Positions 1,335-16,027 of a stretch of 20,994 bases of DNA are shown piece by piece. The translations under genes and the position numbers were made by a program. The notes beneath the pieces are model-generated. The model saw nothing but the letters and a program-made list of their open reading frames with translations, did no database searches and was not told where the DNA came from. The DNA comes from a virus, in IMG/VR virus record IMGVR_UViG_3300030389_002306, positions 43,749 to 64,742 of that record. One strand, written 5' to 3'. The stretch's first letter is position 1; every line of letters starts with the position of its first letter.

Positions 1335-1538
1335 CTATTGCGGTGGTAACTTCTTGCCTTTCTTTTCTTTAACAATCTTACCATTTTCTATCCAAGTTTT
1401 ATTACCTGAATGTGTATTCCATTTGAAGCCGCTTTGTCCTCCAATATAGAAATTTTCTTTATCTCTTTTTTTTGCTCTTTCTACCTGCTTTTCCCAACCT
1501 TCTGGATCGATAGATTTATAATAATCAAATAAATTCAT
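1335..1538 (-). CDS. Small hypothetical late protein, 67 aa
   Basis: A short Lys-rich protein starting MNLFDYYKSIDPEGWEKQVE and ending in a basic GKKLPPQ tail. A helical N-terminal half is followed by a Gly/Trp/Asn segment. No known domain is recognised. Its reality is supported by its setting: a GC-rich terminator-like hairpin (1556-1581) lies just upstream, and a perfect TAnnTTTG element (TATATTTG) ends 4 nt before the ATG, so it seems to be the first gene of a new, probably leaderless, transcript that continues into the 225-aa and connector-like genes. It could be a small regulator or virion component. Confidence 0.6.
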   Translation of the reverse strand: MNLFDYYKSIDPEGWEKQVERAKKRDKENFYIGGQSGFKWNTHSGNKTWIENGKIVKEKKGKKLPPQ

Positions 1539-1542
1539 ATTG

Positions 1543-1550
1543 CAAATATA
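1543..1550 (-). promoter_or_regulatory. Bacteroidota-type -7 promoter element (TATATTTG)
   Basis: Read on the minus strand the site is TATATTTG, matching the Bacteroidota -7 consensus TAnnTTTG. It ends 4 nt before the ATG at 1538, so transcription would begin at or next to the start codon. No clear -33 TTTG lies at the expected distance; the nearest TTTG (1585-1588) is 34 nt away, which is too far. Confidence 0.55.
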
Positions 1551-1555
1551 AGAAT

Positions 1556-1581
1556 AATGGAGGGGACTAAGCCCCTCCGTT
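1556..1581 (-). terminator. GC-rich hairpin, probable terminator of the capsid operon
   Basis: A 10-bp stem (one G-T pair) with a 6-nt loop: the core arms GGAGGGG and CCCCTCC occupy 1559-1565 and 1572-1578. On the minus strand it follows the stop of the 186-aa gene by about 13 nt and is followed by a T-rich stretch (ATTATTCTTATATTT). It is the most stable intergenic hairpin in the window. The T-run is interrupted, so termination may be partial. Confidence 0.65.
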
Positions 1582-1594
1582 ACTCAAATTGTTA

Positions 1595-2155
1595 TTATGC
1601 AGAAGCACTTTCTACTAATAGAACAGTACCTATAGCAACTTGCGTATATCCGCTTAAGTGCCAGTTTACACCATCACATAAAAGTGACATTCTTAAACCT
1701 TCAGTATTTTGATCTACTGAGCCATCTACAGTAATTTTAGACAATCCATCAAAATCATCTACAGTACTATTAGCACCACCAGTTACAATATATCCGTAGA
1801 TATCAGTTGCATCTAAACCAGTTGTAATTATGAAATCAGCATCATCATCGCAGTTAGCTGTAATAATAAAATCATAATATACACCAGCTGAACTAGCAGC
1901 GGCAGGTAAAGTTAAAGTCACATTGTTATCAACAGCAGACATATCAATGGTAAATAAGTTACCAGACTCTACAGTTGTTAATTGTCTAGTTACAGCAGCA
2001 ACATTATTAATTGCTTCTACTGGTCTAGCCAATCTCATGTGTGGCGTAAATTTCGCCTCTTCGCCAGCAGCTAAAGATCCATTTGATACATCTGTACCAA
2101 CTGTAAAATTCTTAACTGCTGTACGCAATTTATTAAAATCAAATTTCAAAGCCAT
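1595..2155 (-). CDS. Putative capsid decoration or head-fibre protein, 186 aa
   Basis: The protein starts MALKFDFNKLRTAVKNFTVG and has a short helical, basic N-terminus followed by a beta-rich, Thr/Val/Asp-rich body. The stretch around residues 65-90 (FTIDMSAVDNNVTLTLPAA) and the late CDGVNWHLSGY match a pattern common in phage head-fibre, decoration and fibre-tip proteins, where a short beta domain ends with a DGxxWhxsG motif. No signal peptide or membrane segment. It lies two genes downstream of the major capsid protein, with a hairpin (2185-2219) upstream and a strong hairpin downstream, so it appears to be the last gene of the capsid transcript. Surface location is inference from sequence style and position. 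Confidence 0.7.
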   Translation of the reverse strand: MALKFDFNKLRTAVKNFTVGTDVSNGSLAAGEEAKFTPHMRLARPVEAINNVAAVTRQLTTVESGNLFTIDMSAVDNNVTLTLPAAASSAGVYYDFIITANCDDDADFIITTGLDATDIYGYIVTGGANSTVDDFDGLSKITVDGSVDQNTEGLRMSLLCDGVNWHLSGYTQVAIGTVLLVESASA

Positions 2156-2184
2156 TTCTATTTATTTTAAAAGTTAATAATTAA

Positions 2185-2219
2185 GGTATTACCGTTTAAG
2201 CTTCTCTTCCGTTAATACC
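2185..2219 (-). promoter_or_regulatory. Intergenic inverted repeat upstream of the decoration-like gene
   Basis: Arms GGTATTA (2185-2191) and TAATACC (2213-2219) form a perfect 7-bp stem with a 21-nt spacer. It lies between the 101-aa gene and the 186-aa gene, and on the minus strand is followed by TTAATTATTAAC. It could act as a leaky terminator, a processing site or an mRNA-stability element. Confidence 0.4.
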
Positions 2220-2234
2220 AGTTAAATTCAGTTA

Positions 2235-2540
2235 TTAAGAGTGAGTGATAGCATCTATACCATCAATTCCGTCAACACCAAACACGCTGTTAACATCATC
2301 TGCTACGGTGATAACACCTACGCCTGATAGTACAAGTCTACTTAACTCCTTAACCACATTAGCTTGTTTTGCAACAGCAACACTTAATGTTACTTTTTTA
2401 AAACCGCCAGCAGCATCAACAAAGTCTACAACTACAGTAGATGTATCAGTTTCACTTCTAATAGCATTAATTCTATCTGAATCTACAGAAAGCTGATCAT
2501 TTGCAGCATCCTGAAAATATAAAAAACATCTATTTGCCAT
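2235..2540 (-). CDS. Small capsid-adjacent protein, 101 aa
   Basis: I chose the ATG at 2540 (MANRCFLYFQDAANDQLSVD) rather than the upstream TTG at 2582, because the longer form overlaps the end of the capsid gene while the ATG leaves a normal 17-nt gap. The protein is Val/Ala/Asp-rich, likely an alpha/beta fold, and ends in a Gly-Ile/Val-Asp repeat (GVDGIDGIDAI) before ITHS. It directly follows the major capsid protein and is probably made in similar amounts, as expected for a minor capsid, cement or decoration protein. No family is recognised, so the role is inferred from position. Confidence 0.7.
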   Translation of the reverse strand: MANRCFLYFQDAANDQLSVDSDRINAIRSETDTSTVVVDFVDAAGGFKKVTLSVAVAKQANVVKELSRLVLSGVGVITVADDVNSVFGVDGIDGIDAITHS

Positions 2541-2557
2541 AATATAAAAGTATTGTA

Positions 2558-4123
2558 TTATGCTGCGGAAAGGATTCCACAAGATAATGGGTTACGAACT
2601 ATAATTCCAGACTCAGATAAAACGTGAGCTTCAAACTTATCATCAGCATTTGCAGCCATCATAGATGATTGATCGTATGGATTAATCATACCAGCTACAT
2701 ACTTTTTGATAAATGAACGGTTAGATCCTTCAGCTCCTTTAGTAACAAGCTCGATGTTAGAAACACCACTTGTTCTACCGAAATCAAGGAATACCATTTT
2801 AGCAGACTCTTTTAATCTGTTGTCACCAAATGCATTTGAACCAGCTGCAGTTGAGTGCAAGTTCTGATCATCAAATACAGGACAGTAAGCAATAGTAATT
2901 TTGTTTCCTAAAGCCATGTAAGATGTGAAGTTAGCACCAAGCTGAACATCACCATTTACACCAACCATAGAACCACCAGTAAATGATCCAGAAGGAGCAA
3001 TTACTAATTCTTTCATTGCTTTGTGGAAAGCCAAACGACCTTCAGTTCCAGTAAATACAACGAACTCATTCCCTTCAGACTGAGTAGTATTTAAAGATAA
3101 CTTAGCCAAGAACTCAGTAATGATGTCTTCAGTTAAAGCACCTAATGTATAAGTAGCTTGGTTAGAAGAATCTATTTGAGCTAATAGACCATCACCTGTT
3201 ACAATTGAAGAACTTTGTACGCCAGACAAACCTGAAAGCGAAGAAGTTATAGCGCCTGGTCTTTGAACAGTAGTATCTGTAATAGATGTTCTACCATACC
3301 AACGCTGTAATTCTTGCTGATACATAAATTCGTCCATCATCATTTGTTCTTTAGTAAAGTACCATAAACGATGTCCATTATTTTCAATCCACATAATGTC
3401 AGTAATATCTTTACCAGTTACAGAAATCTTCTTACGAGAAGTCGTAAGGTAGTTTTTGTAAGTAGAAGGATATACATAATTTTCACCTACATCAGCTCCA
3501 TTAGAACCGTTAGGGAAAGCAGAACCAATAGAAGCAAAGATAGCATCTGCGTGCACATCTGTTAATTGTAGTGGGTTTGCAGTAGCATCAATCAATTCGA
3601 TTTTGACATCGTAAGATGCAGCAGTTACAGCAATACCACCATTAGCAGCAGCTTGTGCAGCTGAAGGAGTTGGATCTTCTAATACAAGACCAACAGCTCC
3701 AGATTGGAATCTGATCATATCAAATTTGTTCAAGAAGTTTGGTGTACGACCTGAAGTGTCACCATCACCTCTTAAATAGATAACGTCTCCGTCAGCGTCA
3801 GCAGCAGCTACCGCAGTACCTGATACAGATGCAGCACCTGATCCAGCAGTTGATCCTACAAATGTAACACCATCTGTAGAAATCCAACCAGCTGAGAATG
3901 TTGGAGCGTTATAACGTCCCATAACTTTCCACTCAAAAGAGTTATCGCCTAGGACTTTTTCACTTGCAAAACGACCTGTTCTTTCCATAAGATAAGTCGC
4001 TGAGTAACGAGGATACTGTTGAATCAACGTTCTTGCAATCTCTGGGTATTGCAATAGTGCTGTGTTCAAGGCATTCTCGGGAGTAGTTCCAGAACCATAA
4101 GTTCCAGTATACAATTTAGCCAT
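2558..4123 (-). CDS. Major capsid protein, 521 aa
   Basis: The shell protein of the phage head, presumably of the HK97 fold. The call rests on its size (typical for larger phage capsid proteins), soluble Ala/Gly/Thr/Ser-rich composition, absence of catalytic motifs, and position immediately after a portal gene and an acidic scaffold-like gene. It starts MAKLYTGTYGSGTTPENALN; a helical, aromatic segment around residues 260-275 (EFMYQQELQRWYGR) is conserved-looking. The ATG at 4123 has an A-rich leader. Hairpins flank the gene and its small follower (4177-4215 and 2185-2219), suggesting separate control of its level. No protease gene is visible nearby, so maturation by cleavage cannot be judged. 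Confidence 0.88.
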   Translation of the reverse strand: MAKLYTGTYGSGTTPENALNTALLQYPEIARTLIQQYPRYSATYLMERTGRFASEKVLGDNSFEWKVMGRYNAPTFSAGWISTDGVTFVGSTAGSGAASVSGTAVAAADADGDVIYLRGDGDTSGRTPNFLNKFDMIRFQSGAVGLVLEDPTPSAAQAAANGGIAVTAASYDVKIELIDATANPLQLTDVHADAIFASIGSAFPNGSNGADVGENYVYPSTYKNYLTTSRKKISVTGKDITDIMWIENNGHRLWYFTKEQMMMDEFMYQQELQRWYGRTSITDTTVQRPGAITSSLSGLSGVQSSSIVTGDGLLAQIDSSNQATYTLGALTEDIITEFLAKLSLNTTQSEGNEFVVFTGTEGRLAFHKAMKELVIAPSGSFTGGSMVGVNGDVQLGANFTSYMALGNKITIAYCPVFDDQNLHSTAAGSNAFGDNRLKESAKMVFLDFGRTSGVSNIELVTKGAEGSNRSFIKKYVAGMINPYDQSSMMAANADDKFEAHVLSESGIIVRNPLSCGILSAA

Positions 4124-4176
4124 TTTTTTAAAAATTTAATTATTAAACACTATTTTAAATCCAGAGTAATTTTCAC

Positions 4177-4215
4177 GTAACTTTGGGCATCGCCCGATTG
4201 TATTTGTAAAGTTAC
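4177..4215 (-). promoter_or_regulatory. Two-tier hairpin between scaffold and capsid genes
   Basis: Outer arms GTAACTTT (4177-4184) and AAAGTTAC (4208-4215) make a perfect 8-bp stem. Inside, GGGC and GCCC (4185-4188 and 4192-4195) form a second 4-bp stem with a 3-nt loop, leaving a one-sided 12-nt bulge. The element covers the scaffold stop codon and leads into the capsid leader. On the minus strand no T-run follows, so a simple terminator is unlikely; mRNA processing, stability or attenuation is more plausible. Confidence 0.5.
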
Positions 4216-5246
4216 TCTCTCATAAACGCAGCAGGATCAAATCCACTCGACTTTGTACGAGTCGTTGGTCTTGTCTTGCTACTAAGACTAGGTGAGGTAA
4301 TTTCATTTAATATTTTAGCCTTACCATCTTCTAGTCCTTGGGAGCGCAAAATCTTAGCAAACTTGTCTTTAAATAACATAAACATCGCTACCTCCGAAGC
4401 ATTGTCGTGAGACTTCCAGATGTCTTCTGCCATTTTACCAGACGTTATATACTTATAAGCATCTTGCGCTTGACTTTTAGTCACTGTACCACCCATAAAT
4501 GTTTGTAGTGATTTTAAGTGACTTTGTAATTCTTTTTTATTTCTCTCTACTTTTTCTTTATTAGTCAACTCTTCTTGTTGCTTTTCTTTCAAGAATTTTT
4601 GTTTCTCTTGTTCAATAGCATTATTAAGTTGTCTTCTAATTCTATAAGCTTCTCTTTTTAAAACACCAGAATCTTCCATCTTATCAATAGCTTCTTCTAT
4701 TTCAAAGTCTTCCATTCCATCTGTTTTCATTTCAGCACCAATAAGTTCTCTATCGTTAAGATTTAGATAAGTATTTAACTTACTTATCATTTCACTTTTT
4801 GGTTGATCTATGAATGGTGAGTTAAGAGCTTTAATTATTTCATCTTTACCATTTGCACTAATACCTAATTCTTTAGATACTCTTGCCCAATCTATCTCTC
4901 CAGATTCTTCAACGCTTTCATTCTTCGTATCAGGCTGTGCTTCAGCAGGGGCATCCCAATCTTCGTCAGCTTCTTGGACTGCCTCTTCTTGTTTCTCAAC
5001 TTCAATGTTGTCCCAAGAAAAATTATCAGCATTTTCAGTTTCTTCAACTTCTTCCGTAGTTGCTTCTGCTTTGTCTGCTGCTTCTTCATTGTACTTGCCT
5101 TGAAATTGTTCCATCATTTGATCTGTAGCAAATGCTAATGGATCAAACTTTTTTTCTTCAGTTGATTCAACTGTAGTTTCTGTTTGTGTTTCTTGAGATG
5201 TTTCTTGTGTTGTCTCTTCTACTAAGTTTGTTTGTTCTTCTGCCAT
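4212..5246 (-). CDS. Putative capsid scaffold protein, 344 aa
   Basis: Scaffold proteins guide assembly of the procapsid and are lost before DNA fills the head. This protein is very acidic and low-complexity in its first third (runs of Glu, Thr and Gln), then has long charged helices (about residues 160-250, Lys/Glu/Gln-rich, likely coiled coil) and a basic Ser/Thr/Lys-rich tail. Its length, charge pattern and position between portal and major capsid protein fit a scaffold. A short motif, FDPLAF at residues 34-39, recurs as FDPAAF at 336-341, three residues from the C-terminus; the C-terminal copy is where many scaffolds contact the coat. No protease motif is seen. A TATATTTG promoter element lies upstream at 5273-5280. 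Confidence 0.75.
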   Translation of the reverse strand: MAEEQTNLVEETTQETSQETQTETTVESTEEKKFDPLAFATDQMMEQFQGKYNEEAADKAEATTEEVEETENADNFSWDNIEVEKQEEAVQEADEDWDAPAEAQPDTKNESVEESGEIDWARVSKELGISANGKDEIIKALNSPFIDQPKSEMISKLNTYLNLNDRELIGAEMKTDGMEDFEIEEAIDKMEDSGVLKREAYRIRRQLNNAIEQEKQKFLKEKQQEELTNKEKVERNKKELQSHLKSLQTFMGGTVTKSQAQDAYKYITSGKMAEDIWKSHDNASEVAMFMLFKDKFAKILRSQGLEDGKAKILNEITSPSLSSKTRPTTRTKSSGFDPAAFMRE

Positions 5247-5272
5247 AATTTAAAATTTTTGTCCCTAATTTG

Positions 5273-5280
5273 CAAATATA
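5273..5280 (-). promoter_or_regulatory. Bacteroidota-type -7 promoter element upstream of the scaffold gene
   Basis: TATATTTG on the minus strand, immediately after the portal stop codon (5281-5283) and 26 nt before the scaffold ATG at 5246. Unlike the other copies it would give a short A/T-rich leader. It could boost scaffold and capsid expression relative to portal and terminase. Confidence 0.5.
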
Positions 5281-7581
5281 CTAAGAATTTTTAATAATAT
5301 CTTGTATCCTTTTTTTACGCTGAGGTGATACTTCTCTTGCCTCTGCTTCAGATTGTGCTTTGGATAAGTTAGCCTTTGCATCATTCTGTGCTTTTTCCTT
5401 CAAAAAGATTTGTTTGTTTTTAACAACATGCGCAACATCTGATGTATCTCGTGCAAGATCATCTTTCATATCAGCAATCTTCATATCAGCTTCAGCTTGA
5501 ATTGTAGCAACTTGTACTTTACCTTGATTTTTCATTTCTTCAATCTGTAGGTTTCTTTGATGTTCAGCTTCGCTAGCTTGCGCTTGAGCTTCCATCATCG
5601 CTTGTTGTTGCTGTGCTTGTTCAGCTTGTTGTTTCTTAACTTCATCCATAGCTCTTTCAAGTATGTGTTCAGCTTCTGTAAATGTATCAGCTTTCAATAC
5701 TTTAATAATGTCAAGTAGCGTAGCTTGTCCACCTTGTAATGCGGCTTGTGCAATACCTTGCAACTGCTGACGCATAGCATCGTCTTTACCTGCATCACCA
5801 ACATAAATACCAAAGTCATTTAGTCTGATGTCTGGAAATATAGATAGAAACTTAAACGCACCATCTCCTAATATGTAAGATGCTTTCTTACCATTAGCCC
5901 AGCATACCTTCATTAAATCACACACTCTTTCAAACACTCGTTTCTTAACCATAGCGTGTGAGTAGAATAAACTTTCTGTTATAGTAGCAGATTGTACAAC
6001 ACTACGCTGCACATTACCTACATATTCGTATTGTCCTACTGCACCTTCACGCTGAGGTGATACACCAGATATTTGTCCTGCAGTTTGCTCTAACATCAAT
6101 TTAAGATTGATAAGCTGTTGTACAGAATTAGAAAGTGTAAAATCAATTTGTTGGAATTGATTGAATGATGCTAGCTGATTACCTTCTTCTTTAGAATTGA
6201 TAGGTATAATACCATCTGTTTTTAAATGATACAATACAGTTTGCATATCCATACCAAGATTAGTAGGTAGTTGTGATACATCATACACCACAGCTTTACC
6301 ACCTGAACGAGCCATAGCAAGTTCTATTTGATACATAACTATATTGTAAAGCATCTGTATATTCTTAAGCAAATCTACCATAGATATAGATCTACCAGTA
6401 GTATTATTTCTAACACAACCTACATATGATAGTGATGTAGAACCAGCATCATCTACTGAACGAACTTGATTAGGTCTTCGTCTAGCTTGTACTAATATCT
6501 TACCACCAATTTTAGTAGCCTCCCATATATCATCCACATATCTTGTAACTATTTCTTCATTACGTCTAGGTGAATAATCATCAGGCACTTGTTTCATAAA
6601 TGGTCTTTCAGGATTAAATTTATTTTCTGATACTTTAAATTTAAGAGCCTTAATAGATTTCCATTCTACTGATACTACGCGTATCTTTACCTCTTGTCCT
6701 TCTTGATAGTCAATCCAATCAAATGGATCGTTGTATCTAGCTAAATCATCATAGCCACCTATTTGATACATAGCTGACAACTCTTCAAGTTGCTCTCTAT
6801 CCAACTCATCTCTAAACTCATCTAGTATTTCACTATACGATAAGTAGCGTTCTTCGCCTACCCAAGATGAATCATCCAAGTAATCTGATGATGCATTTAT
6901 TTCATATACTATATTTCTAGGATCTACTCGTCTAACAAATGGATCACCATTGCGATCGTATACCCTAAAAAATTCTTTACCAGTTACAAGCATATCTCTA
7001 AAGCCTTCTTTGAATAAATCTCTATAGTTATACTTTTGTATTAAATACTCTAAACCATCTTGTGCAGTTTCTTCTACCATCTCACGATAGTTATATCGCA
7101 TGTACAAGTCTATATCTTCTGGTACTTCCATTTCTGTAATCTCAGGTAACTCGATGCCAACAGAATCTTTGAACTCTTGATGTATCTCTTCGGTAAGTTT
7201 TTTCATTATAAGATTTACCTTAACATCTTCTTTTCTTAGTACAGCTTCTTTGTTAGTAGTTGATACCTTTACATCTAACGGTCTTCTTAAATCTTCACCT
7301 ACAAGCAAGTCAATCTTTGGTGATATAATTGGATAGTTAACTAGTCGAGCTGGATATGCCATCCCATACTGCTCTGTTATATATTTAAAATCTTCTAAAT
7401 CTAAAGTGCCGTTGTATATGTTGTAGTTTTGTATATCGTTTAGTCTTGAATTTTTATAAGGCGATTCTACATACGACATGTAGGCTACTACTGCATTTAC
7501 CCATTGATTTGCCCACTCTTCTGTTTTTTCTGACTCCAACACAAACTGTGGTGGAAATGATGATTGACTTGAATTGTACAT
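5281..7581 (-). CDS. Portal protein, 766 aa
   Basis: Forms the dodecameric ring at one capsid vertex through which DNA is packaged and ejected, and to which the terminase docks. The size is normal for large portals. The body is alpha/beta with many conserved-looking aromatic and acidic segments. The segment GISGVSPQREGAVGQYE (about residues 500-520) followed by a long helix resembles the stem region of portals that follow the SGxxP-type pattern. The C-terminal third (about residues 645-735) is Gln/Ala/Glu-rich coiled coil, a tail seen in many portals of podovirus-like phages. The ATG at 7581 overlaps the terminase stop by one base, so the two are translationally coupled. The stop is followed directly by a promoter element for the scaffold gene. 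Confidence 0.92.
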   Translation of the reverse strand: MYNSSQSSFPPQFVLESEKTEEWANQWVNAVVAYMSYVESPYKNSRLNDIQNYNIYNGTLDLEDFKYITEQYGMAYPARLVNYPIISPKIDLLVGEDLRRPLDVKVSTTNKEAVLRKEDVKVNLIMKKLTEEIHQEFKDSVGIELPEITEMEVPEDIDLYMRYNYREMVEETAQDGLEYLIQKYNYRDLFKEGFRDMLVTGKEFFRVYDRNGDPFVRRVDPRNIVYEINASSDYLDDSSWVGEERYLSYSEILDEFRDELDREQLEELSAMYQIGGYDDLARYNDPFDWIDYQEGQEVKIRVVSVEWKSIKALKFKVSENKFNPERPFMKQVPDDYSPRRNEEIVTRYVDDIWEATKIGGKILVQARRRPNQVRSVDDAGSTSLSYVGCVRNNTTGRSISMVDLLKNIQMLYNIVMYQIELAMARSGGKAVVYDVSQLPTNLGMDMQTVLYHLKTDGIIPINSKEEGNQLASFNQFQQIDFTLSNSVQQLINLKLMLEQTAGQISGVSPQREGAVGQYEYVGNVQRSVVQSATITESLFYSHAMVKKRVFERVCDLMKVCWANGKKASYILGDGAFKFLSIFPDIRLNDFGIYVGDAGKDDAMRQQLQGIAQAALQGGQATLLDIIKVLKADTFTEAEHILERAMDEVKKQQAEQAQQQQAMMEAQAQASEAEHQRNLQIEEMKNQGKVQVATIQAEADMKIADMKDDLARDTSDVAHVVKNKQIFLKEKAQNDAKANLSKAQSEAEAREVSPQRKKRIQDIIKNS

Positions 7582-9401
7582 TATCTAATTAATTTTGGTA
7601 CTCCGTTTCTGTCTAACTTATAATACTTAAAACCTATGTCCGCTTCTTCTGCCTGCACCTCTTTTGCTTGTATTCTATAATTATCTACATTATGAATCAA
7701 ACATAAACCAAACGCAATAGCTCGGTCTGTGTTTCTGGTTCCATAATTTGCTAGTTCATCTATCAAATCTAAAAACCAAATATCCTCAGCATTCTCTCTA
7801 ATGTAATCATCCATTAAATCCTCCATTAAAGATTTTACCTGTTTATTCATATGCACCCCATACCTGTTCCTAGTTTTAGTTCCAGGATTATGCGCAGACT
7901 CAGGTTTTTCTTTTAAATACTTCAAAGCATTCATTCTTTTAAAATAATCAAGAATGCCTATTTTAGTATATTCCACTAACATTTTAGCATTATAATACAT
8001 AGCTAATTTCAAACAACCATCCCAAAAATCTTCTTTTTTTTCTGGTCTATCTGTGTATTCCGCTACGACATAATCACTAGCATATTCCGTGTTTACAAAT
8101 CTACGATAAATTATTGCACTTCCCAAAGAGTCTGATGCACCTGCTTTATCTTGATCATATGAGTCAATACCACCTATATCTAAATCTTTATATTCTGGTG
8201 CTGGATGTTCTAAAATTTTATATGGACCATCAGGATGTGGTCGCCATCTTACCATAAAGTTTTCTTCATTATCAAAATCCCAATCCAAGTATCCTGACTG
8301 CACTTGACTTCTATAATCTTTGCTAGCTAGTATTCTAGATCTTTGTGCATTTAATAAAGAGTTATTAAATCTAGCTGTCTTAGTGTTTAAAAATGCTTCT
8401 TGTATAGTTAACGGATAGTTTTGTATATGCAGGTTATATGCATCTCTATCACCTGAGTTTGTTATTGTTTCTCTTTCTTCTAACAATACTGACTCTGCTT
8501 CTTTAACTTTTTCTTCGCCTGTGCTAATATCAAAGTATCCGTAATATGCTCTTGAAGCTGGAATAAACATAGGTATAAGATTATAAGCTTCTGCTTCATA
8601 ATACATATCCATAAAGTCTTTTGATGCTTTACTTATATCACCACCTGTACCACCTACAACAGGAACTCCAAATTGTAAGTTACCATCCATAAAACATGCT
8701 TTGGATGACATATATGCATTTTTTAAATGTTTAAACTCACCAGCCTCTTCAAATACCATAAGCGACACACGCTCACCTTTAAATACTTCTGGATTATCCA
8801 TTGTTCTGCATATTACTGTAGATTGATATCCACCAACCTCCCACTTACCATCTTTGTTCTTTTGTTTATATCCAGAACGAAGTATACCATCTGTATCTTT
8901 TAGTATAGAATGTTTAAAGTTAGGATGCAATCCATTCAATCCTTTTTTGGTTTTGTCAAAAAATGCATCAGCTGTAGCTTGTAAACCTGCAGCTATACCT
9001 ACATCATTAAACGGAAAGAATGTATATTCGTGTGCTATCATACCAGAGTTCATGTAACTAAACCCTTTGTCCCTAGCTTTAATAACAATCATACCCTTAC
9101 CTTCATCTTTGCAAGTTTGAAACAAATCAAAGTATTCATGGTCCATCTGTCTATACCAAGGACTAATTAAAGTTTTACGAGATCCTTTAGTACCATCATT
9201 ACCAAGTATTTTATAGTAGTTAAGATAAAAGTAATACTTGCCAGAAATTTTTTTCATTCCCTTTGGCTTGAATCCATTAATGCATCTATGAAGCTCTTGC
9301 TCCCAATATTCTTGATAAGCTACTGACTCAGGATTTAAATCAGGATGTCCATTGTTTACAACAGGTCTATATCTTTGTGGATCTTGTTTTGCTTTTGGCA
9401 T
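7581..9401 (-). CDS. terL: Terminase large subunit, 606 aa
   Basis: The ATPase-nuclease motor that pumps DNA into the procapsid and cuts the concatemer. The ATPase domain shows a Walker A-like KARDKGFS (residues 108-115, the terminase variant form), a Walker B LMVFEE with its catalytic Glu pair (214-219), and a coupling-type GTGG (251-254). The RNase H-like nuclease domain carries acidic residues at expected spacing: D413 in IGGIDSYDQ, E477 in LVEYTK, and D559 in NTDRAIAFGL. The N-terminal YW.E..RC (32-40) plus ISGKYYFYLNYY (52-63) is reminiscent of terminases of Bacteroidota phages, including crAss-like ones. It abuts the fibre-like gene with no gap and overlaps the portal start by one base. 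No separate small terminase is clearly recognisable. Confidence 0.95.
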   Translation of the reverse strand: MPKAKQDPQRYRPVVNNGHPDLNPESVAYQEYWEQELHRCINGFKPKGMKKISGKYYFYLNYYKILGNDGTKGSRKTLISPWYRQMDHEYFDLFQTCKDEGKGMIVIKARDKGFSYMNSGMIAHEYTFFPFNDVGIAAGLQATADAFFDKTKKGLNGLHPNFKHSILKDTDGILRSGYKQKNKDGKWEVGGYQSTVICRTMDNPEVFKGERVSLMVFEEAGEFKHLKNAYMSSKACFMDGNLQFGVPVVGGTGGDISKASKDFMDMYYEAEAYNLIPMFIPASRAYYGYFDISTGEEKVKEAESVLLEERETITNSGDRDAYNLHIQNYPLTIQEAFLNTKTARFNNSLLNAQRSRILASKDYRSQVQSGYLDWDFDNEENFMVRWRPHPDGPYKILEHPAPEYKDLDIGGIDSYDQDKAGASDSLGSAIIYRRFVNTEYASDYVVAEYTDRPEKKEDFWDGCLKLAMYYNAKMLVEYTKIGILDYFKRMNALKYLKEKPESAHNPGTKTRNRYGVHMNKQVKSLMEDLMDDYIRENAEDIWFLDLIDELANYGTRNTDRAIAFGLCLIHNVDNYRIQAKEVQAEEADIGFKYYKLDRNGVPKLIR

Positions 9402-10121
9402 TTATCTTAATGTTAATGTTGCAGCTCTTGTTACGCCATCATTACATGTTACAAGAATATTTAAACTATAGCCAGTTTTTGGAGTGCCTTTGACATCAAA
9501 CACCATAGATGTGTTAGCTGTTATTAATCCTTGACTTACTTTAGCTGTATTAGCTGTTATGGCATTAGCCTGTGCTGTTGTTATGGTTGTAGTATCACCT
9601 TCTAATGCTTTGCCTGAAGTTGTTCCAAAACCAGGGAATGTAGCTTTAGCTGTATTAGCACTTATAGCGCTAGCTTGTGAACTCGATATTGTTGTTGTGT
9701 TACCTCTTAAGGCAGTATTAGAGCTATTTCCAAAGCCAGGAAAAGATTGAAAATTTCCTATCGCATTATCTAATCTTTGTAGTTCAATTATTAAAGCTGC
9801 TATATTTGTAGCATTAGTATTGATAGCATTTACTTGAGATTGACTAGCTCCTACTGTATCATCAGAGCTATTAGTAGCAGATAGCACAAGCATAGTAAGT
9901 ATAGATCTAAGATTTTCTAAATCTATTTCCTTATCATATGATTGTCTTCTACCTGAATAAAAAGTAGTTTGAAATAAGTCTTCAATAGCGTCTAAAAGCT
10001 CTGCTCTAGTTCTTTTATCGTCATCACCTGGCTCAACTTTAGTAAGGGTAACTCTAGGGACTTTAATTCTATGCGCACTTCTTACTGTGCTACTTTTATA
10101 ATCTTTTTTGAAATTAGCCAT
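9402..10121 (-). CDS. Repeat-containing virion/fibre-like protein, 239 aa
   Basis: The N-terminal 60 residues are basic and helical (MANFKKDYKSSTVRSAHRIK). Residues 127-161 and 162-196 are two tandem copies of a 35-residue unit beginning FPGFG and containing TTTIxxxQAxAIxANTAK; a weaker third trace (SQVNAINTNATNI) lies near residue 94. This Thr/Ala/Asn heptad-like unit is common in trimeric fibre or baseplate proteins of aquatic phages. The C-terminal 40 residues form a small beta segment. The ATG overlaps the end of the 75-aa gene by 8 bp, and the stop touches the terminase start. A fibre or tip role is inference; location before terL rather than in a tail-fibre cluster is odd. Confidence 0.75.
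   Translation of the reverse strand: MANFKKDYKSSTVRSAHRIKVPRVTLTKVEPGDDDKRTRAELLDAIEDLFQTTFYSGRRQSYDKEIDLENLRSILTMLVLSATNSSDDTVGASQSQVNAINTNATNIAALIIELQRLDNAIGNFQSFPGFGNSSNTALRGNTTTISSSQASAISANTAKATFPGFGTTSGKALEGDTTTITTAQANAITANTAKVSQGLITANTSMVFDVKGTPKTGYSLNILVTCNDGVTRAATLTLR
9534..9743 (-). repeat. Two tandem 105-bp coding repeats
   Basis: Units 9639-9743 and 9534-9638 encode the two 35-residue repeats of the fibre-like protein. Both begin with codons for FPGFG and end with NTAK plus two residues. The similarity is also visible at the DNA level (for example the block encoding SAISANTAKA against NAITANTAKV), so the array could expand or contract by recombination or slippage. Confidence 0.75.
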
Positions 10122-10341
10122 ACTTCTGCTTTTTATACCCTGCTATTTTACCTAAGCCAAAAGGATCGCGTGGATCTTCTTTGGCTTCTAACTTAGCATG
10201 ATACTCTTCGTCTAAGTTCACACCGTGAATAGACTGAGAGTACCTGCTTAGTTCCTTTGCCTTTTTAAAGTCACCTTCTTTATATAATTTATTAAATCTA
10301 TATCGAAGGTTTTGTAACTTTGGTGGCTGTTTTTTAGCCAT
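10114..10341 (-). CDS. Small basic hypothetical protein, 75 aa
   Basis: A Lys/Arg/Tyr-rich, mainly helical protein starting MAKKQPPKLQNLRYRFNKLY and ending in GYKKQKYG. No known domain is recognised. It overlaps the preceding Met-rich gene by one base and the following fibre-like gene by 8 bp, which suggests translational coupling in the terminase operon. A small DNA-binding or terminase-accessory role is possible from charge and position but is not shown by any motif. Confidence 0.7.
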   Translation of the reverse strand: MAKKQPPKLQNLRYRFNKLYKEGDFKKAKELSRYSQSIHGVNLDEEYHAKLEAKEDPRDPFGLGKIAGYKKQKYG

Positions 10342-10706
10342 TAGTCATGCTGCATTCTGCCGCCTCCAGGATACATAGATCCTTTCTTCATCTTCATGCC
10401 ATGTCCAGCTTTCTTCATTTTACCACCGTACATCATGGAATCTTTCATCTTACCGCCTTTCATCATCTTCTTCATCATTTTTCCACCGTACATAAAATCT
10501 TCGTCAGCTTTCATCATACCACCCATAGCCATAAAGCCCATTTTATTTCGTACATCTGTAGGCAATTTAGCTAGACCAGGATTGTCTTTTTTGTTTACTG
10601 GCTTTAGCTTTCCACCCATAGCCATTTGTTGCTTAGGCATGTTAGCGTTAGGCTTCTTTTTGAAGTGACCACCGCCAGGATACATTGATTTTTTTTTCTT
10701 TTTCAT
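10341..10706 (-). CDS. Met/Lys/Gly-rich low-complexity protein, 121 aa
   Basis: By direct count 23 of 121 residues are Met and 28 are Lys; Gly is also very common. The motif MYPGGG occurs near both ends (residues 8-13 and 111-116), and shorter MGGK/MYGGKM units fill the middle. Both strands are open over part of the region, but the minus frame fits the tightly overlapping operon (1-bp overlap with the next gene) and matches a type of repeated MGGK protein seen in marine phages near head genes. Such a protein is probably disordered and positively charged; it may bind DNA or metal. No function is known to me. Confidence 0.7.
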   Translation of the reverse strand: MKKKKKSMYPGGGHFKKKPNANMPKQQMAMGGKLKPVNKKDNPGLAKLPTDVRNKMGFMAMGGMMKADEDFMYGGKMMKKMMKGGKMKDSMMYGGKMKKAGHGMKMKKGSMYPGGGRMQHD

Positions 10707-10723
10707 TTTAATTAAAATTATTA

Positions 10724-11260
10724 TTACGTAATATTTTCTTGAATATCTTTTTTGTTTTCAAGAAATGATAACTTTTTATTCCCAACTATTTTCTGACGCT
10801 CTCCGCGTCTTTCGATTGCATCAACAAGAGTTTGTCTTGTCTTATATATTTTTTCGATCCCTATCATTATCTTTTGCAGTCCTTCTGCAGTATCTTCGTT
10901 TATGTGCATATTGTTCATATACTCAGTAAACTGACTGATCTTAGTATTAAAAGCAATTAGCTGCTCATCCAACGGATCAAACTGTAATTGCTTATACTTA
11001 TCTATAGCAGCTAAAATCTCTGGTCTTTTTTCACCATACCATTCATACTTGCCGTATAAGTCTCTACTAACAGCCTTTTTTCTTTCTGATTCAGTAAAAT
11101 GTCTGTAAGGACTATCGTAATCACAGACTAGGGCTACCCACTTTAGTGCAACAGCCCCTAACTTATCAGCTTTTAATACGCTTACAAACTCAGGTACCCC
11201 CGTTACTCCATCATCCTGTTTGTATACGTCCCCCTGTCTATCTAACTTTAATAGATACAT
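10724..11260 (-). CDS. Conserved hypothetical protein upstream of terminase, 178 aa
   Basis: Begins MYLLKLDRQGDVYKQDDGVT; an alpha/beta N-terminal half includes LKWVALVCDYDSPYRHFTESERKKAVSR (described from residues about 40-67), and the C-terminal half is charged helices likely to form a coiled coil (about 95-170). Similar proteins with the WVALVCDYxSPYRH pattern sit near packaging genes in Bacteroidota phages as I recall them, but with no known role. A TATTTTTG promoter element ends 4 nt before the ATG at 11260. A small-terminase-like function is conceivable from position but unsupported. Confidence 0.75.
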   Translation of the reverse strand: MYLLKLDRQGDVYKQDDGVTGVPEFVSVLKADKLGAVALKWVALVCDYDSPYRHFTESERKKAVSRDLYGKYEWYGEKRPEILAAIDKYKQLQFDPLDEQLIAFNTKISQFTEYMNNMHINEDTAEGLQKIMIGIEKIYKTRQTLVDAIERRGERQKIVGNKKLSFLENKKDIQENIT

Positions 11261-11264
11261 TGTA

Positions 11265-11272
11265 CAAAAATA
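11265..11272 (-). promoter_or_regulatory. -7 promoter element (TATTTTTG)
   Basis: Matches TAnnTTTG on the minus strand and ends 4 nt before the ATG at 11260, as in three other late genes. This again implies a leaderless or near-leaderless message. Confidence 0.45.
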
Positions 11273-11274
11273 TA

Positions 11275-11556
11275 CTAATCTCCCCTATATTCCAAATCGT
11301 ACTTAACCATCCAAATATATTCTGGACCATTAGGCTCTGTTATCCCTTTCCAATCAGCCATTCTTAAGTATCTATCGTTTTTCATATTGTATATTTTTCT
11401 CTCTACAATAACAAAGTCCATATTAAATATTTCATTTATTAAATAAGACTCATCATCAAACAATAGATCTAATCCATTGTAATATTTTTCTAATACAAAG
11501 CTGTTTTCTGCAACAACAAACACCTTTCCAAATTCGTTTGAAAACTCTCCAATCAT
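11275..11556 (-). CDS. Small hypothetical protein, 93 aa
   Basis: Starts MIGEFSNEFGKVFVVAENSF; a compact acidic alpha/beta protein rich in aromatic residues, with YIWMVKYDLEYRGD at the C-terminus. No signal peptide or membrane segment and no family recognised. A TATATTTG element ends 5 nt before its ATG. Only 14 nt separate its stop from the next start, and the promoter of that next gene overlaps this interval and ends near its stop codon, so the two genes may have independent starts of transcription. Confidence 0.7.
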   Translation of the reverse strand: MIGEFSNEFGKVFVVAENSFVLEKYYNGLDLLFDDESYLINEIFNMDFVIVERKIYNMKNDRYLRMADWKGITEPNGPEYIWMVKYDLEYRGD

Positions 11557-11561
11557 AGTTA

Positions 11562-11569
11562 CAAATATA
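11562..11569 (-). promoter_or_regulatory. -7 promoter element (TATATTTG)
   Basis: Perfect TAnnTTTG on the minus strand, ending 5 nt before the ATG at 11556. No clear -33 TTTG upstream; instead a GC-rich segment (GGAGCGAAGCGACC on the plus strand, 11591-11604) precedes it. Confidence 0.5.
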
Positions 11570-11636
11570 TGGGGATAATAATTAATAAAGGGAGCGAAGC
11601 GACCGTTTTTTTTATACTAAAATCAAAAAGATTTTA

Positions 11637-12215
11637 TTATTTTATAAACATATCGTAGCCAGTCATAAATCTTCTCCTAGCCTTGTCTACAGATCCATAC
11701 TTTTTCGCTCCACCTTTATTATATTCTTTCATATAGTATTGAAATAAAGCTTCTGGATTGTTAGCAGGTAGAGCCTTAGGGGATAAGCCATATATCTGTC
11801 TAGCTACAGCTACAGAAGCTAATGGATCGTCAGATTGTAATAAGCCGCTTAGACCAAGCATGTCTGACGGAAGCCCCATCTCTCTATATCTATCAGCATA
11901 TTTCTGTCTAGTGTCTGTATCTCTTTCAAATATAGTATTAAAGGCATCATCATCTATAGACATAAAAGAACGAGTGTAATCTCTACCAAAAGCTGTAGTA
12001 TCAGCCCCCATACTATTCTCCATATAGGAAGTCATAGTAAGTAAGTTTCTTAATGTTTGTTGAGATTCTGGAGCTTCATAAGATACCACTTCTTCTATAG
12101 CATCAAATATCTCATTTTGTGTGCTTCCTGGTCCGCTAAGCATACCCTGAACCATTTCAGACATGTACTTTCCTGCATCTTCTGGTGAATCTATATGATA
12201 TGGATTATGTGGCAT
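11637..12215 (-). CDS. Hypothetical late protein, first gene of the minus arm, 192 aa
   Basis: I chose the ATG at 12215 (MPHNPYHIDSPEDAGKYMSE) over the TTG at 12230 because a TACATTTG promoter element would lie inside the longer form. The protein is acidic and Met-rich, mostly helical. The C-terminal 70 residues (DPLASVAVARQIYGLSP ... YYMKEYNKGGAKKYG) contain a Y(M/W)KxYN-type segment that I have seen at the C-terminus of phage virion proteins annotated as internal or structural. No catalytic residues of a lysozyme are evident. It stands alone: 80 nt separate it from the next gene, which has its own promoter. Confidence 0.7.
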   Translation of the reverse strand: MPHNPYHIDSPEDAGKYMSEMVQGMLSGPGSTQNEIFDAIEEVVSYEAPESQQTLRNLLTMTSYMENSMGADTTAFGRDYTRSFMSIDDDAFNTIFERDTDTRQKYADRYREMGLPSDMLGLSGLLQSDDPLASVAVARQIYGLSPKALPANNPEALFQYYMKEYNKGGAKKYGSVDKARRRFMTGYDMFIK

Positions 12216-12219
12216 AGTG

Positions 12220-12227
12220 CAAATGTA
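12220..12227 (-). promoter_or_regulatory. -7 promoter element of the first minus-strand gene (TACATTTG)
   Basis: Matches TAnnTTTG and ends 4 nt before the ATG at 12215. A TTTTTTG stretch adjoins it upstream. It marks the minus-strand side of the divergent control region. Confidence 0.5.
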
Positions 12228-12404: not shown

Positions 12405-12731
12405 ATGTCATTATTAAAATCATTAACAGGTTTAGCTAAAGCAACAGTACAATTAGCTAAAGAAGACAAGGAGTTCCGTAAAGAAGCTGCTATTGCTGTA
12501 GCAACATTCCCTATTTTTACTGCTCAAGTTACAATAAGTGCTATAGATGTAGCAGTAGGCGCTACTAAAAACGTAGCAAGAGCTGCTGGTAAAATAGATG
12601 ATATGTATAAAGATAGGTTTGAAGTAAAAAGTAAGTTCGATACCTATGTTGATAAGCAAATGCGTAACAACGAAGCAATGTCAGAGAACGTAAAGGTAGC
12701 TGAAGAGCTACTTAAAACTATGTCTCTATAA
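12405..12731 (+). CDS. First plus-strand (early) hypothetical protein, 108 aa
   Basis: Starts MSLLKSLTGLAKATVQLAKE; the whole chain reads as helix, with an amphipathic N-terminus, a hydrophobic Ala/Val/Ile-rich middle (about residues 28-54) that might insert in or lie on a membrane, and a charged C-terminal helix. No known family. It is the first gene after the divergent region, preceded by a structured leader and the 16-bp repeat, and followed by a 204-nt stretch without a sizeable gene, so it is probably transcribed early and strongly. A host-takeover or membrane-associated role is speculation. Confidence 0.75.
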   Translation: MSLLKSLTGLAKATVQLAKEDKEFRKEAAIAVATFPIFTAQVTISAIDVAVGATKNVARAAGKIDDMYKDRFEVKSKFDTYVDKQMRNNEAMSENVKVAEELLKTMSL

Positions 12732-15631: not shown

Positions 15632-16027
15632 ATGGGACTAGATCACGGATTGATTGCCTACAAAGGCAGAAATAAAAAACAGATAGATTTTAAATACAAT
15701 CCATCTGAAGAAATAACTATAGTAACTTGGCGTAAACATCCATACCTGCACGGCTGGTTTGATGATTTGTACGAAGAAAAAGGCGGTAACGCCTATGATA
15801 ACGATAGTTTTGGTGGATTTAATGCTGGGCATAACTTAGAAGTTACACATGAAGATTTACTTGAACTACAAACCAGAGTACTAACAGGCACTTTGCAACC
15901 CAGAAGTGGTTTCTTTTGGGGTGATGATGCCTGTGAATACTATAAAGAACAAGATTTGGATGCTATTTATGAAGCTATGAACTACATAAAAGATGGCTAC
16001 AAAATCAAATATTGGGCTTGGTGGTAA
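15632..16027 (+). CDS. MGLD-type conserved phage protein, 131 aa
   Basis: I chose ATG 15632 (MGLDHGLIAYKGRNKKQIDF) over a TTG at 15602. The MGLDxxL start, the WRKHPYLHGWFDDLYE segment (about residues 34-49), a central LELQTRVLTG helix and an aromatic FFWGDDACEYY match a small family common in phages and sometimes mislabelled phosphoglycerate kinase. That label is not supported: there is no nucleotide-binding domain and the size is a third of the enzyme. The role is unknown. The stop and the next start share a base (TAATG). Confidence 0.8.
   Translation: MGLDHGLIAYKGRNKKQIDFKYNPSEEITIVTWRKHPYLHGWFDDLYEEKGGNAYDNDSFGGFNAGHNLEVTHEDLLELQTRVLTGTLQPRSGFFWGDDACEYYKEQDLDAIYEAMNYIKDGYKIKYWAWW

Follow-up and report, generated by a model that had tools for sequence, protein, structure and literature searches.

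To our knowledge, Bacteroidota do without Shine-Dalgarno signals, and translation start in their phages is poorly understood. The housekeeping promoter of these bacteria (sigma-ABfr, TTTG / TAnnTTTG) comprises a -33 element and a -7 box. In Flavobacterium, where transcription starts 4–5 nt after the box, the consensus of the latter has been refined to TAHHTTTG, and RNA-seq of F. johnsoniae found the -33 motif to be much less evident (PMC6847099), a point repeated by authors working on B. thetaiotaomicron, who note that a -33 element could not be identified in F. johnsoniae. Leaderless mRNAs, in which the start codon lies at the transcription start, amount to 5.5% in F. psychrophilum, and about 3.7% of mRNAs have leaders shorter than 10 nt in B. 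thetaiotaomicron. In leaderless genes of Deinococcus-Thermus (PMC12340547) the promoter box likewise stands directly before the ORF, with a different sigma consensus and in cellular genes. In the published view of crAss-like phages, the host polymerase transcribes the late genes and a virion polymerase the early ones (PMC8375218, PMC10136315), and crAss001 and phi14:2 carry their late structural block, thought to be host-polymerase-read, on one strand. Neither leaderless late genes nor promoter positions were found described for crAss-like phages in a search of the open-access literature.

The late genes described here resemble these systems in several respects. Their -7 boxes are those of the Bacteroidota housekeeping promoter, with G excluded at both variable positions, and share with it a weak -33 and AT-rich upstream DNA, but a larger share of the near-start boxes (about 33–47%) lies at 4–5 nt from the start codon. 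As in the leaderless messages of Flavobacteriaceae and Bacteroides, the start codon would coincide with the transcription start behind this same box; unlike them, the present cases belong to a phage late block, occupy orthologous slots across a clade and are known here from sequence. The late structural block likewise lies on one strand, as in crAss001 and phi14:2, although in phi14:2 only 2 of 114 starts have a box at 4–5 nt. Predicted leaderless late genes conserved in a marine crAss-like clade would make transcription starts predictable to one base; the box spacing improves start-codon calls in such phages, and the loci offer natural short promoter–start modules for flavobacteria.

The late block and its promoter boxes

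The window, the whole stretch of 20,994 nt that was analysed, covers bases 43749–64742, i.e., the end of a 64,742-base (64.7 kb) viral contig. Judging by its genes this contig is a marine crAss-like phage, with the crAss-type portal, terminase and capsid genes of Crassvirales present in order; the best portal identity to named phages is ~30%, the nearest of these being distant. The late, structural block consists of the minus-strand genes up to 12215, and the other block of the plus-strand genes from 12405 on, among them those for a DnaB-like helicase and an HNH endonuclease. Genes referred to below are as follows (window coordinates except for the last).

1335–1538, minus strand: 67-aa gene, probably with a leaderless mRNA (predicted from sequence)
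2558–4123, minus strand: major capsid protein gene (phrog_11589)
4212–5246, minus strand: 344-aa gene, probable scaffold, assigned by its position between the capsid and portal genes; without a PHROGs match
5281–7581, minus strand: crAss-like portal protein gene (phrog_6547, E 5e-126)
7581–9401, minus strand: terminase large subunit gene (phrog_6681)
10724–11260, minus strand: 178-aa gene (MYLLKLD...), predicted as probably leaderless
11275–11556, minus strand: 93-aa gene, predicted as probably leaderless
11637–12215, minus strand: 192-aa gene that opens the minus-strand (late) block (phrog_3108)
contig 21009–27944, minus strand: 2311-aa protein, candidate virion RNA polymerase, with a DLDGD motif near its C-terminus

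The last of these matched the Pfam vRNAP_dom below threshold (E 0.05) and gave no match in comparisons with the PDB and with phi14:2. Short N runs lie around contig positions 12550 and 16950.

A preliminary description of this DNA had reported four TAnnTTTG elements 4–5 nt before minus-strand ATGs and a fifth copy 26 nt upstream of the gene in the scaffold position, and all five lie exactly where it placed them. They are listed here by window coordinates, together with one candidate -33 element.

1543–1550, minus strand: -7 element TATATTTG, 4 nt before ATG 1538
11265–11272, minus strand: -7 element TATTTTTG, 4 nt before ATG 11260
11562–11569, minus strand: -7 element TATATTTG, 5 nt before ATG 11556
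12220–12227, minus strand: -7 element TACATTTG, 4 nt before ATG 12215
5273–5280, minus strand: -7 element TATATTTG of a leadered promoter, 26 nt before ATG 5246
11293–11296, minus strand: TTTG, possible -33, 20 nt upstream of the -7 box of 11260 and within the codons of the upstream gene

Two further copies precede ATGs outside the window, at contig positions 15841 and 43253. Near contig position 34600 (minus strand) TATATTTG also stands 5 nt before an in-frame ATG within the 3' end of a 1921-aa gene; the product would be 9 codons long, or the site may be a chance occurrence.

Distance from box to start codon in related phages

Close relatives were drawn from IMG/VR contigs with the portal gene as query, and the distance from TAnnTTTG to ATG was counted at 636 distinct gene starts in 80 portal-bearing relatives and the window's own contig. 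The boxes fell at 4 nt (36 starts) and 5 nt (12 starts), with none at 0–3 nt or at 6 nt. The preliminary description had put forward a sharp peak of this kind among orthologs in related phages as its test, and the prediction held. A second, broad group of boxes, ~10–36 nt from the ATG, belongs to leadered genes, and controls with reversed and altered motifs gave flat spacing distributions. All 48 boxes of the peak match TAHHTTTG, with no G at both variable positions; these 48 sites are not independent but linked by shared descent, representing about 13 gene families, and a box at any other distance within 0–9 nt was found in only 4 of these. When all sites were counted independently of ORF calls, ATG was in excess at offset 4 (44 vs roughly 20 typical), and the same count for GTG or TTG gave no excess there. 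Two features of leaderless genes, a box at a fixed distance from the start codon and an AUG start codon (the excess being one of ATG only), are found here. At all 13 of the 5-nt sites a T precedes the ATG, as against 43% across all starts, which fits, and would favour, initiation at the A of AUG.

Leaderless late mRNAs, as had been proposed for this locus, are the best reading of this peak, since the Flavobacterium start site lies 4–5 nt after the box (PMC6847099). The boxes are very probably ordinary Bacteroidota housekeeping-sigma promoters (TAHHTTTG) from which transcription starts at the A of AUG or within ~1 base of it. This reading is well supported by computation, its start position being taken from a published distance, and so understood, the predicted leaderless late genes are a solid and conserved feature of these phages. 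Late in infection, host RNA polymerase would make mRNAs from the boxes near start codons, and the translation of these mRNAs would be leaderless. For other late genes, e.g., the one at 5246, the promoter would have the same box and the message a leader of roughly 20–30 nt.

The extent of conservation depends on the gene family. The 4-nt spacing is kept in 19 of 22 members of the 1538 family, and in the other three the gene call appears to begin at an upstream ATG or another start. A box at 4–5 nt is found in 13 of 28 members of the 11556 family and in 6 of 26 of the 11260 family, where it is kept in near relatives; a distant subgroup of the latter has no box, and its gene directly follows the upstream ORF. 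Among the 18 members of the family at contig 43253, six have the box at 4–5 nt, nine are leadered and three have it at 7–8 nt. The 5246 family has a leadered -7 element in all 33 of its 33 members, with a gap of mostly 26–35 nt. In some orthologs, then, the same start codon has its box at 7–8 nt or at about 24 nt, or has none, and therefore leaderlessness would not be essential to those genes. The leader of the 5246 gene (window 5246–5280, minus strand) is itself conserved across relatives (TATATTTGCAAATT.GGG...) and may be regulatory. At contig 43253, and in relatives, the predicted leaderless box is preceded by a conserved stretch, GATGTGAGGCCTATTGTTGTTTT, within an intergenic region of ~97 nt.

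The same layout occurs in bacteria, as seen from gene-anchored counts in host regions, which replaced a whole-genome pattern count that suffered from high background. Random Flavobacteriaceae regions (502 genes) had 9 boxes at 4 nt, 5 at 5 nt and none at 0–3 nt. The share of near-start boxes at 4–5 nt was 23% in pooled Flavobacteriaceae regions (10/30 in Flaviramulus alone), 7% (2/29) in a marine single-cell genome (SAG) and 3% (1/32) in a Bacteroides, and in phages it was 33% for a set of 13 contigs and 47% for a broader set. The phage share does not differ significantly from that of Flavobacteriaceae (P 0.26), and does differ significantly from all hosts pooled. The 4–5 nt spacing is a host layout rather than the phages' own, perhaps used more often by phages.

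Sigma usage, strand bias and start codons

Boxes at 4–5 nt are concentrated on the late strand, where they precede 33 of 501 genes in 13 phage contigs, compared with 1 of 216 on the opposite strand (P 8e-5); with leadered boxes included, the figures for the same contigs are about 91 and 11 (P 1e-6). The gap before a gene has a median of 61 nt where there is a box at 4–5 nt, versus 1 nt where there is no box at all. The late bias of the boxes fits the published division of labour between the host polymerase (late) and the virion polymerase (early).

From an apparent lack of any -33 TTTG at normal spacing, altered or phage-assisted sigma usage had been suspected. The premise is wrong at ATG 11260, where TTTG-N20 is present, though inside codons, the only such site among the four of the window. 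A factor encoded or modified by the phage, allowing host polymerase to use -7 boxes without a -33 as a late-gene switch, would be in keeping with the rarity of TTTG at 19–20 nt (3/21 non-redundant leaderless vs 3/46 leadered phage sites) and with the concentration of boxes on the late strand. It is nonetheless improbable, as the -33 is likewise lacking in host promoters that carry this box (TTTG at 19–21 nt in 1/61 Flavobacteriaceae and 2/29 marine SAG sites), F. johnsoniae is reported to have a weak -33 or none that could be identified, no sigma-like gene was present among the proteins scanned (a subset of all proteins), and a virion polymerase reading the early genes explains the strand bias equally well. 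The suspicion of altered sigma usage is not supported: the -33 is as scarce in leadered phage and in host promoters, hosts share the 4–5 nt peak, and the phage boxes have the host consensus TAHHTTTG. There is no evidence that a special sigma mechanism is needed, and the notion that one is required stands corrected. A generic sigma-70 scan gave fewer sites than shuffles and is unsuitable for Bacteroidota.

Housekeeping promoters could also serve leadered genes, if the true start codon lay further downstream or transcription started further upstream, and the spacing would then be incidental. The start codons are indeed predictions, and some orthologs are leadered. Such an arrangement is, however, very unlikely. 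N-termini are conserved from Met1, e.g., MA(S/T)LNEIAYNIKN and MYLLKL, whether or not the ortholog has the leaderless arrangement, which speaks against misassigned start codons, and the peak falls exactly at the published distance from box to transcription start, with its neighbours at 0–3 and 6 nt empty. Chance matches in AT-rich DNA would agree with the total of TAnnTTTG in the window, which is not enriched (32 vs 30.7 expected from shuffles), but are refuted by the spacing histogram, by conservation in relatives and by a position-specific excess, with 4 of 13 minus-strand starts having the motif at 4–5 nt as against a mean of 0.018 per dinucleotide-shuffle set (maximum 2 in 5000 sets; binomial P about 2e-9 for the window alone). 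The whole-window count is uninformative as a test because most copies fall inside coding sequence, position being what counts.

A stem-loop abutting the -7 box at 1538

Immediately upstream of the predicted leaderless promoter at 1538 lies one further element.

1552–1585, minus strand: two-part stem-loop, probable intrinsic terminator, ending 1 nt before the -7 element

Its outer stem is GAGTAA/TTATTC and its inner stem GGAGGGG/CCCCTCC, with a folding energy of -19.5 kcal/mol (z -4.5), and it was the top match in a terminator scan; as in intrinsic terminators, the G+C-rich stem is followed by a T-rich tract. In 15 of 15 distinct relatives that were folded, the stem shows compensatory changes and keeps a distance of 1–2 nt to the box. 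The outer stem varies as GAGTAA/TTATTC, GAATT/AATTC, GGAA/TTCC, AAGAA/TTCTT and GAGTTT/AAATTC, and the inner stem as GGAGGGG/CCCCTCC, GAAGGGG/CCCCTTC, GGGGGAGC/GCTCTCCC and others, pairing being kept in every case. The comparison was made sequence by sequence, as a MAFFT alignment misplaced the 3' arm. Hairpins stronger than -9 kcal/mol immediately in front of the box are significantly more frequent at leaderless than at leadered sites (8/21 vs 2/46).

The most natural reading of the fold is that it probably terminates the upstream unit and is joined to a leaderless promoter, and it is possible that the hairpin instead shields the upstream mRNA at its 3' end. Taken as a terminator, the stem-loop would bring the transcript end of the upstream unit, the promoter and the start codon of the next gene together, stem, -7 box and ATG forming a compact module of about 55 bp. 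More tentatively, and with somewhat more doubt than conviction, the three may be regarded as one expression module, in which the terminator stem would replace the -33 region, the downstream gene would be leaderless, and the phage would keep the unit to give adjacent late genes separate transcripts, each tuned on its own. In Tenacibaculum (L251, upstream of 3931), a terminator-like hairpin is followed by TACTTTTG and then by 5 nt to an ATG, a possible equivalent that hints at wider use of the device among marine Flavobacteriaceae and their phages.
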